Under the pieces are notes generated by a model. The model had not been told where the DNA came from, did no database searches, and saw only the letters and a program-made list of their open reading frames with translations. The position numbers and the translations under genes were made by a program. From Ruminococcus sp. (GTDB lineage Bacteria; Bacillota; Clostridia; Oscillospirales; Ruminococcaceae), in the NCBI RefSeq assembly GCF_024692365.1, contig NZ_JAILMR010000020.1:1-52079 (forward strand): DNA of 52,079 nucleotides. Direction: 5' to 3'. Shown in pieces: positions 39,426 through 42,051 of this stretch (within the stretch, counting starts at the first letter, position 1; the number at the start of each line of letters is the position of its first letter).

Positions 39426-39677
39426 TTAAAGGCTCTCGTGGAATGTTCTGGAGATAACGTCGTCCTGCTGTTCCTTTGTCAGCTTGACGAAGTTTACTGC
39501 ATATCCCGATACCCTGATGGTCAGCTGGGGGTATTTCTCGGGGTGTGCCTGTGCGTCCAGAAGTGTCTCGCGGTTAAGTACGTTGACATTCAGATGATGT
39601 CCGCCCTTCTCGGCATAGCCGTCAAGCAGACCTATAAGGTTTTCCACCTGTGCGTCGGTAGGTTCAAAATTTGCCAT
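39426..39677 (-). CDS. Separate glycyl-radical domain of pyruvate formate-lyase (GrcA-like)
   Basis: 83 residues, start after gaaaggatatt. Nearly the whole protein equals the C-terminal segment of normal PflB: NLIGLLDGY, GGHHLNVNVLNRETLLDA, HPEKYPQLTIRVSGYAVNF and LTKEQQDDVISRTF. The Gly in RVSGYA is the radical site made by PflA. Unlike E. coli GrcA (YfiD, about 127 residues) it lacks the extra N-terminal region, and unlike E. coli the main enzyme encoded in this locus has no radical domain of its own. It should therefore be an essential subunit rather than a spare part. It is third in the pflB operon, 18 bases after the degenerate paralogue. Confidence 0.9.
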   Translation of the reverse strand: MANFEPTDAQVENLIGLLDGYAEKGGHHLNVNVLNRETLLDAQAHPEKYPQLTIRVSGYAVNFVKLTKEQQDDVISRTFHESL

Positions 39678-39695
39678 AATATCCTTCCTTTCGTG

Positions 39696-39941
39696 TCACA
39701 GTTCCTCGTCGTCCTCATCGGGCGCTTTTTCGTTGGGCTGACAGCACGCTCCCGTGCCGCAGTCGTTGCTTCTGAAAGTCTGAACGGTCATTTCGGGCTC
39801 GTCCTGACCTTCGCGTTTGGCTTTCAGCAGGGCTTCAGCGTCAATATTGATATGACCCTCGCCGCCTGCCATCAGCCTGTCTATCATTTCGACAAGTTCA
39901 TTTACCTTGCCGTCTTCATCTTTTGAAGCATTAATTGCCAT
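39696..39941 (-). CDS. Degenerate paralogue of the glycyl-radical domain, Cys-rich tail
   Basis: 81 residues from ATG 39941, which overlaps the pflB-core end by 11 bases and follows cggaggatcttaata. It aligns with the 83-aa radical-domain protein through V-x-x-L-x-x-(L/I)-D...GG...H-(L/I)-N-(V/I)-(N/D)...E-x-LL-x-A...P-x-(L/M)-T-(V/I), but the RVSGYA loop is replaced by TFRSNDCGTGACC and the end is acidic (EKAPDEDDEEL). It cannot carry the usual glycyl radical. A regulator, chaperone or assembly factor of the split enzyme is possible. Homology rests on a short alignment made by eye. Confidence 0.7.
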   Translation of the reverse strand: MAINASKDEDGKVNELVEMIDRLMAGGEGHINIDAEALLKAKREGQDEPEMTVQTFRSNDCGTGACCQPNEKAPDEDDEEL

Positions 39942-42051
39942 TATTAAGATCCTCCGCAATGCTTGCGATATCGATATCGCCTACGAACATCTCATCGTCC
40001 TTACCCAGTGCGCCGGGGATTATGGAGAAGGTATTGGAGATACCGTCCTGTGCGTGTCTGAACGGCAGCTTTGCAACAGAGGACAGTGAAGATGCAGCAC
40101 CGTGAGTATCTCTGCCGTGCATGGGGTTCGCACCGGGTGCGAGAGGCACGCCGATCTTTCTGCCATCGGGAGTAGAACCAGTCTTTTTGCCGTATACCAC
40201 GTTAGATGTGATAGTCAGTATCGACATGGTAGGCACGCCGTCACGGTAGGTATGGTGCTTTCTGATCTTGTTCATGAATCTCTTGACGATATCGACAGCC
40301 AGCTTATCAACTCTGTCGTCGTTATTGCCGTACTTGGGGAAATCACCTTCAACGATGTAGTCAACAACAACATTTCTTGCTACATCGATAACATTGCCTG
40401 CCTTGTCCTTGATCTCGATATCCTTGCGGACAGGCTTAACCTTTGCGTACTTGATAGCGGAAAGTGAATCCGCAACAACGGAAAGACCTGCGATACCAGT
40501 TGCAAAGTATCTCTTTACATCTCTGTCATGGAGAGCCATCTGGAGTCTTTCGTAGCTGTACTTATCGTGCATGAAGTGGATAACGTTCAGGGTATTTACA
40601 TACAGACCTGCCAGCCATTCCATCATATCATCGTACTTCTCCATTACATCGTCGAAGTCGAGATATTCGCCGTCAACAGGACGGTACTTAGGACCGACCT
40701 GTACGCCAAGACGCTCATCAACGCCGCCGTTTATAGCGTAGAGCAGGCACTTAGCCAGGTTTGCTCTTGCGCCGAAGAACTGCATTTCCTTGCCCACAAC
40801 CATGGAGGATACGCAGCAGGCAACAGCGTAGTCGTCGCCGTGAGTAACTCTCATCAGGTCGTCGTTCTCATACTGGATAGCGGAAGTTCTTATGGACATT
40901 CTAGCGCAGAACTTTTTGAAGTTTGCAGGCAGCTTAACGCTCCACAGAACTGTCATATTAGGCTCTGGTGCAGGGCCCAGATTGTTCAGTGTATTCAGAT
41001 ATCTGAAAGATGTCTTTGTTACCATAGGCACGCCATCGATGGAAACGCCGCCGATAGACTCTGTTACCCATGTGGGGTCGCCTGAGAACAGGGAGTTATA
41101 CTCGGGAGTTCTTGCGAACTTGACCAATCTCAGCTTCATGATGAAGTGGTCTACCAGTTCCTGAGCCTGTTCCTCGGTCAGCACGCCGTTTGCGATATCT
41201 CTCTGGATATAGATATCGATAAATGTGGAAGTTCTGCCCAGTGACATTGCTGCACCGTTCTGCTCCTTGACAGCTGCAAGGTAGCCGAAGTACAGCCACT
41301 GTATAGCTTCCTGAGCGTTCTTTGCGGGTCTGGAGATATCACAGCCGTAGATCTCGCCCAGCTTTTTCAGCTCGCCCAGTGCTCTGATCTGTTCTGCCAG
41401 TTCCTCACGCAGTCTGATATTCTTGGAAGTCATTCTGACCAGTGAATTATCAAGCTGATCCTTCTTATCCATTATAAGATAATCAACGCCGTACAGTGCA
41501 ACACGTCTGTAGTCGCCGATGATACGGCCTCTGCCGTAAGCGTCAGGCAGACCTGTCAGTATAGCTGCGTGTCTTGCCAGCTTCATCTCGGGGGTATAAG
41601 CATCAAAAACGCCCTGATTATGGGTCTTTCTGTACTCAGTGAATATCTTCACTATCTCGGGATCCACTTCATAGCCGTACTGCTTGCAAGCTGCCTGAGC
41701 CATTCTCAGTCCGCCGAAAGGCTGAAGAGAACGCTTGAAGGGCTTATCTGTCTGGAAACCAACGATCTTTTCAAGATCCTTGTCGAGATAGCCTGCCGCA
41801 TGGCTTGTGATAGTAGATACGATCTTGGTATCCATATCCAGCACACCGCCTGCTTCCCTCTCCTGTCTTGAAAGCTCAGTCACCTGCTCCCAGAGCTTTG
41901 TAGTAGCCTCAGTAGGACCTGCAAGAAAGCTCTCGTCTCCGTCATAGGGTGTGAAATTCTTCTGGATAAAGTCTCTAAGATTAACAGAGGTGCTTGACCA
42001 TCTGCCGGGCTTGAAACCTTTCCACTCCTCATCGAACCAATTTCTTTCCAT
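39931..42051 (-). CDS. pflB: Pyruvate formate-lyase core lacking the glycyl-radical domain
   Basis: 706 residues from ATG 42051 (gggagagatgtaca upstream). It matches PflB from its N-terminus (WKGFKPGRW, NFTPYDGDESFL) through the active-site pair Cys412-Cys413 in VACCVSS to FSIIPGALGKDDE, then stops after about 20 more residues (EDLNNGN). In E. coli PflB (about 760 residues) roughly 60 further residues hold the radical Gly; here they are encoded separately downstream. The enzyme converts pyruvate and CoA to acetyl-CoA and formate in anaerobic fermentation. Long leader of about 145 bases from the promoter at 42203-42231. Confidence 0.95.
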   Translation of the reverse strand: MERNWFDEEWKGFKPGRWSSTSVNLRDFIQKNFTPYDGDESFLAGPTEATTKLWEQVTELSRQEREAGGVLDMDTKIVSTITSHAAGYLDKDLEKIVGFQTDKPFKRSLQPFGGLRMAQAACKQYGYEVDPEIVKIFTEYRKTHNQGVFDAYTPEMKLARHAAILTGLPDAYGRGRIIGDYRRVALYGVDYLIMDKKDQLDNSLVRMTSKNIRLREELAEQIRALGELKKLGEIYGCDISRPAKNAQEAIQWLYFGYLAAVKEQNGAAMSLGRTSTFIDIYIQRDIANGVLTEEQAQELVDHFIMKLRLVKFARTPEYNSLFSGDPTWVTESIGGVSIDGVPMVTKTSFRYLNTLNNLGPAPEPNMTVLWSVKLPANFKKFCARMSIRTSAIQYENDDLMRVTHGDDYAVACCVSSMVVGKEMQFFGARANLAKCLLYAINGGVDERLGVQVGPKYRPVDGEYLDFDDVMEKYDDMMEWLAGLYVNTLNVIHFMHDKYSYERLQMALHDRDVKRYFATGIAGLSVVADSLSAIKYAKVKPVRKDIEIKDKAGNVIDVARNVVVDYIVEGDFPKYGNNDDRVDKLAVDIVKRFMNKIRKHHTYRDGVPTMSILTITSNVVYGKKTGSTPDGRKIGVPLAPGANPMHGRDTHGAASSLSSVAKLPFRHAQDGISNTFSIIPGALGKDDEMFVGDIDIASIAEDLNNGN

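Follow-up and report, generated by a model that had tools for sequence, protein, structure and literature searches.

The window, by which we mean the whole stretch of DNA analysed (52,079 nucleotides of a Ruminococcus sp. contig), carries a locus for pyruvate formate-lyase (PFL), a key enzyme of fermentation, in which the enzyme is distributed over separate genes (Table 1). A gene for the catalytic core is followed by one for a protein that we name MID, encoded between the core and GrcA3, and then by the gene for GrcA3, a free glycyl-radical domain. The stop of the core gene and the start of the MID gene overlap by 11 nt. Ribosome binding sites precede both small genes, as a preliminary description of this DNA had stated, with GGAGG 5′ of MID and AAGGAAGGA 5′ of GrcA3. 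The hairpin that lies 3′ of GrcA3 was not among the outputs of a consensus scan of the window. Together with one gene, whose product gives a sub-threshold DUF3592 match, it separates GrcA3 from pflA. A relative of that product (69.8% identical) is present at the locus of one related genome (G158) and at none of the 31 other core-bearing loci compared. Three imperfect inverted repeats, with arms of 24–30 nt that are 75–80% complementary, are found between pflA and the next gene, and no Rfam family reached its gathering threshold in the window.

Table 1. Features of the split PFL locus in the window and of the split class III ribonucleotide reductase (RNR) elsewhere in the same genome
Feature	Position	Strand	Remarks
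PFL core, 706 aa from ATG	39931..42051	minus	ends ~23 residues past the start of the radical domain (E. coli 680)
Codons of catalytic cysteine pair C412-C413 of the core	40813..40818	minus	position computed from the core ORF
C-terminal tail of the core (VFxGDxDI...)	39931..39999		conserved in most split cores
MID, 81 aa, radical-domain paralogue with Cys pair replacing the glycine loop	39696..39941	minus	
Cys-pair loop of MID (C61 near-invariant, C66 invariant, C67 common)	39741..39761	minus	from MID alignment
GrcA3, 83 aa, free glycyl-radical domain	39426..39677	minus	
Codon of predicted radical glycine G58 (RVSGYAV) of GrcA3	39504..39506	minus	aligns with E. coli G734
Hairpin followed by T-rich stretch 3′ of GrcA3, possible terminator	39380..39416	minus	56-nt fold, -25.7 kcal/mol
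300-aa protein between GrcA3 and pflA	38326..39228		sub-threshold DUF3592 match
pflA, radical SAM PFL-activating enzyme, 249 aa	37564..38313	minus	TIGR02493, 293.8 bits (cut-off 231.75)
Three imperfect inverted repeats	37035..37443		between pflA and the next gene
Split RNR parts in the same genome (G000)	C110:96300-98135 (L195); C15:2939-3055 (L196); C114:22539-22634 (L197)		relatives: L212-L225

Core and radical domain as one enzyme

The core scores 1103.8 bits with the PFL equivalog model TIGR01255 (cut-off 994.2), its best stretch covering model positions 2–667 of 744, and the 83-aa protein corresponds to positions 663–744 of the same model. Aligned on E. coli PFL (1h16), the core accounts for residues 10–680 and the 83-aa protein for residues 680–758, so that together they span the enzyme once. 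The radical motif RVSGYAV occurs in the small protein and not in the core. Thus, the core has the family score and the Cys-Cys pair of TIGR01255 members, with the glycyl-radical domain encoded by a separate gene instead of in the same chain, and the 83-aa protein has what defines GrcA/GrcA3: it is small and free, bears RVSGY, and exceeds the cut-off of the NCBIfam GrcA3 model (NF038360; 164.3 versus 158 bits). The claim of the preliminary description that this PFL is truly split, with a Cys-Cys core and a detached radical domain, is therefore borne out. The pair is invariant in a set of 28 cores, and in a further comparison C412 and C413 are present in all 34 split or fused cores and in all 30 full-length ones. 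From the family score and the cysteine pair we assign the core to PFL, and the cleavage of pyruvate to formate and acetyl-CoA is predicted. By analogy with the E. coli system, and given its motif, the 83-aa protein would carry the radical and be charged by PflA.

No second PFL was found in the window's own genome (93.79% complete, 140 contigs), the only PF02901 enzyme being the split core; the search for any full-length PflB had been proposed as a check. Apart from its two hits in the window, PF01228 (Gly_radical) matches just two proteins of this genome, both of them of class III RNR and one scoring under the cut-off. A full-length PFL alongside, as is found where GrcA/YfiD serves as an optional spare, was not found. 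A frameshift, which the preliminary description had already dismissed, or an assembly error is ruled out by 36 named loci retrieved with MID, including those of R. albus AR67, KH2T6 and 8: a core or part of one lies upstream in 36/36, and GrcA3 downstream in 35, the remaining one being on a short contig (L160).

TIGR01255 was compared with 197 genomes from the family of the window's own genome; it matches in 144 of them, and in 118 the match exceeds the cut-off. We counted as split those in which the core match ends at model positions 663–677 and a free GrcA3 exceeds its own cut-off. By this criterion 32 of the 118 are split and one (G122) is fused, with a linker of unusual type; subtraction leaves 85 whose match runs to the end of the model. 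A second TIGR01255 match over the cut-off was found in none of the 32, many of which are 97–100% complete. The split is genuine, and it is conserved both within Ruminococcus and outside it. Since no full-length PFL was found in the genome, GrcA3 is very likely obligatory for this PFL, as had been supposed. The earlier idea that a replaceable subunit for the oxygen-sensitive radical could permit cheap repair of the enzyme is plausible.

The split cores have further peculiarities. Most of them carry at the C-terminus a novel conserved tail (VFxGDxDI...), which is missing from the 12-aa linkers of full-length enzymes. C435 is found in 34/34 split or fused cores versus 2/30 full-length ones, and H404, F516 and S416, the last lying three residues past the catalytic pair, are likewise fixed in the former and rare in the latter. 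It is possible that these four residues are contacts of the detached domain.

MID, the third gene

The most unusual part of the locus is the third gene. The preliminary description mentioned a second small gene, and missed that its product resembles the radical domain, lacks the glycine and bears a conserved Cys pair. A protein search returned 18 homologues of 68–81 aa, called 'hypothetical protein' where their source names them, and no Pfam or NCBIfam model recognises MID above its cut-off. An alignment of 41 MIDs gives the consensus DELVxMIDxLMxxGxGHxNI...VxTxRSxDCG...GACCQPNE, in which C66 is invariant, C61 is present in at least 90% and C67 is common. There is a Cys-pair loop in place of the RVSGY glycyl motif, and the GrcA3 model gives MID 16.7 bits against its cut-off of 158 (E 0.0056).

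The MID profile also matches GrcA3 and PFL radical domains, over approximately positions 8–41 only, which correspond to the helix and the first strand; the likeness is therefore to half a domain. The comparison of profiles with hhalign gave a probability of 95% (E 2.5e-8) for MID versus GrcA3 and of 54% (E 1.3e-4) for MID versus the radical domains of full-length enzymes. The MID model matches 32/32 GrcA3s, 23/30 full-length radical domains and none of 3200 shuffles. In the reverse search the GrcA3 model matches 27 of the 41 MIDs and the full-length radical-domain model just one. Thus, MID is a paralogue of the radical domain, nearest to the free one, in which the glycine loop and the end helix have given way to a cysteine pair and an acidic tail. 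The dN/dS of MID lies at 0.05–0.22 across the six pairs compared, dS being close to saturation in two of these, and points to purifying selection. A chance open reading frame is ruled out by the profile, the dN/dS and the distribution.

Strong matches to the MID profile (E ≤ 5.7e-14) occur in 25 of the 197 family genomes, all within the 32 split ones; the location of the weaker matches identifies them as the radical domain of a PFL or as GrcA3, apart from two unassigned ones in G024 and G163. MID lies between core and GrcA3 in 23 of the 32 split loci, and in G111 and G190 it is found elsewhere in the genome, beside a gene that by eye resembles dCMP deaminase. A sample of the order contained MID in 4/394 genomes, one of them new (G280), and a sample of the class in 10/391, nine of them new and belonging to four further families. 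All 10 of these additional genomes also have a split PFL, with the gene order core-GrcA3-MID in one (G713). In the samples searched MID is thus restricted to split-PFL genomes.

Interchange of MID with a cysteine tail on the core

Split genomes without MID often carry a cysteine pair on the core itself. Among the 55 split genomes examined, 35 have MID, 15 have a Cys-pair tail on the core and 5 have neither. The core tail contains no cysteine in any of the 35 genomes with MID, and it contains the pair in 15 of the 20 without. Within the family, the tail is present in six of the seven split genomes lacking MID, and G177 has neither element. The class genomes, selected by a free GrcA3 at E ≤ 1e-36, played no part in finding this pattern and served as a held-out test of it: besides the window's own genome, 22 of the 391 have such a GrcA3, nine of them with MID, and the other 13 comprise nine with a Cys-pair tail (e.g., DCSNGACSTPTLFEGLD) and four with neither (G716, G911, G812 and G752). 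The motif PTLxxGxD follows the pair in 7/15 tails and in at least 11 MIDs (e.g., SLDCIEGTTACGSPTLFEGLD). One short contig (L160) among the 36 separate named loci has a single terminal cysteine in its core tail. The linkers of the 30 full-length PFLs read, of 12 aa, contain no cysteine. MID and the Cys-pair tail of the core therefore interchange across split-PFL genomes. The Fisher tests give extreme values, but they ignore relatedness.

The phylogeny was examined with two trees. A FastTree phylogeny that included 30 full-length enzymes of the family groups the fused G122 and 33 split cores into one clade (support 0.84). A quick IQ-TREE analysis of 87 rows, to which class genomes were added, places G752 outside the main split clade, beside long-branched full-length rows, and two full-length enzymes with standard 12-aa Cys-free linkers (G884, L191; G880, L192) inside it. 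These two are likely re-fused PFLs, judging from their position, and G752 is perhaps a separate split. The core of G752 (L190) ends at GKDD and has neither MID nor Cys tail, with long branches in play. There is weak rejection (p-AU 0.044) of a tree that unites the split rows and G122 to the exclusion of G884, G880 and G752. G122 (L097), which keeps CDNC within its long linker and has the radical domain in one chain again, is likely re-fused as well. The tail form requires five changes on the tree, at least four of them forced by well-supported branches, so that it arose at least four times. Five independent pairs are available for MID versus tail (none changing the same way, three opposite and two without difference at the median), and four for the Cys element versus being split (on average 1.6 the same way, none opposite and 2.4 without difference); with so few pairs neither comparison can reach significance.

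Proposed role of MID

We think that the three adjacent PFL genes are best read, tentatively and somewhat short of probable, as an enzyme in which MID serves as stand-in, docking on the empty core to guard it until GrcA3 binds. The domain-like half of MID would bind the open edge of the core barrel, in the place of the radical domain, and bring its cysteines near C412-C413; a Cys pair borne on the core tail, being tethered, would need no docking half. MID or the tail could hold the vacant site in a closed, folded or reduced state and may also prime the core, before being displaced by GrcA3, which would itself be obligatory and charged by PflA. The docking site, the guarding, the redox action and the displacement are inferences. 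In cleaved E. coli PFL, according to a published study (PMC8683613), the binding of YfiD depends on residues 696–733: with the form comprising residues 1–695, binding of YfiD was not detectable and the radical yield was 32-fold lower. In the same study the N-terminal 60 residues of YfiD mattered as well. The split core has no counterpart of 696–733, and GrcA3, with 83 aa, is too short for an arm of the YfiD type. MID or tail may take over the role that 696–733 play toward YfiD: MID would provide in trans a relative of the strand region with cysteines at the place of the glycine loop, and tail cores would provide the cysteines in cis. Because neither the 30 full-length linkers read nor the two re-fused enzymes with standard linkers, G884 and G880, contain the Cys element, it would be a device needed for a detachable radical domain. 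Against MID being a stand-in count the 5 of 55 split genomes with neither element, the location of MID away from the PFL locus in G111 and G190, its likeness to half a domain only, and the five independent evolutionary pairs, too few for significance.

The closest rival is pure recruitment, where MID or the tail would be a docking handle for recruiting GrcA3 (or PflA) to the core and the cysteines would merely hold its fold. It agrees with the absence of the element from full-length and the two re-fused enzymes, and has a direct analogy in the recognition element 696–733 described in PMC8683613; yet what MID and the core tails have in common is the Cys pair, sometimes with PTLxxGxD, and not the domain-like half, so that we hold this explanation to be possible and on balance unlikely. 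We consider it rather improbable that the element is a radical quencher or thiol switch, with the Cys pair reducing or capping the radical, or forming a disulfide in air, as a reversible off-switch of PFL. The pair does sit at the glycine-loop place in MID, and G734 of E. coli PFL lies 3–4 Å from the active-site pair (PMC12338860), but a general safety switch should suit fused enzymes too, and the 30 full-length and two re-fused enzymes are without it, as far as their linkers go. Binding of zinc or an iron-sulfur cluster by the MID cysteines, as in the small subunits of other glycyl radical enzymes, would fit conserved cysteines in a small partner protein; it is made quite improbable by the presence of only two conserved cysteines in the 41 MIDs, at variable spacing, instead of the at least four ligands that we take to mark iron-sulfur small subunits, and no such sequence was found in the PDB. 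That MID is a decaying GrcA3 duplicate without function would explain the lost glycine motif and the wide divergence, and is strongly disfavoured by the low dN/dS (two of the six pairs being near saturation), the invariant cysteine and the exchange with core tails. Finally, that GrcA3 is an ordinary spare for a full-length PFL missed in the incomplete draft assembly is hardly credible when none of the 32 split family genomes lists a second TIGR01255 match over the cut-off.

A parallel in class III ribonucleotide reductase

Sequence comparison indicates that one class III RNR of this genus is also split. Alongside an intact class III RNR, the window's own genome encodes another NrdD (on C110) that ends before the glycyl motif and adjoins an NrdG-like gene, together with two free proteins of 90–94 aa bearing RIRRITGYLVG. 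Among the 17 relatives searched, the own genome included, the truncated NrdD is present in 11/11 members of the genus and the free piece in ten, the one without it being G940 (85% complete). In a genome of another family (G199) the NrdD core and the free piece lie 170 nt apart. A protein search with the free RNR piece returned 5133 homologues, in a length range of 50–157 aa. A wider picture, which we regard as possible rather than probable, is that Ruminococcus-like bacteria use the glycyl radical as an exchangeable protein cofactor, in PFL and in one class III RNR, and that a Cys-bearing dummy domain plugs and guards the vacant PFL site between exchanges, the plug having passed to the core tail in other lineages.

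Comparison with known systems

The nearest known system is that of E. coli PflB and GrcA/YfiD, in which a separate glycyl-radical domain likewise completes a core without one. There, however, a full-length PflB is accompanied by an optional spare of 127 aa with a disordered arm, whereas here no full-length enzyme was found, GrcA3 has 83 aa, and MID is an extra component. The name GrcA3 is already used by NCBI for R. albus proteins; it denotes a cofactor protein and is silent on the adjacent truncated core and MID. The solved chains closest to the core are PDB 38la and 38lb ('Formate acetyltransferase'), neither of which is among the 34 chains matched by GrcA3. Read up to its last 38 residues, 38lb shows ALGK followed by a CDMC tail. 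Split-like cores are thus probably already under study, although 38la could be a cut construct. No MID-like chain was found in the PDB by sequence. HpdC and BssB/BssC are small subunits of glycyl radical enzymes that carry iron-sulfur clusters and are not known to be related to the radical domain. Like them, MID is a small protein with cysteines that partners a glycyl radical enzyme; unlike them, it has two conserved cysteines and is a paralogue of the radical domain. In the openly accessible journal literature, subscription journals and preprints aside, no account was found of MID, of its exchange with a core tail or of a naturally split PFL. Hence, the GrcA3 name was known already, and MID and its exchange with the tail are apparently new.

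We think that these enzymes allow direct tests of the way in which a free radical domain locates its core, enters it and leaves it again, and that their parts may help in engineering glycyl radical enzymes that tolerate oxygen. With a class III RNR split in parallel, the detachable radical domain would be a general strategy of these anaerobes. Compared with E. coli, the natural two-chain PFLs represent the state that was built artificially in the repair experiments with that enzyme, plus a third component that is absent there.
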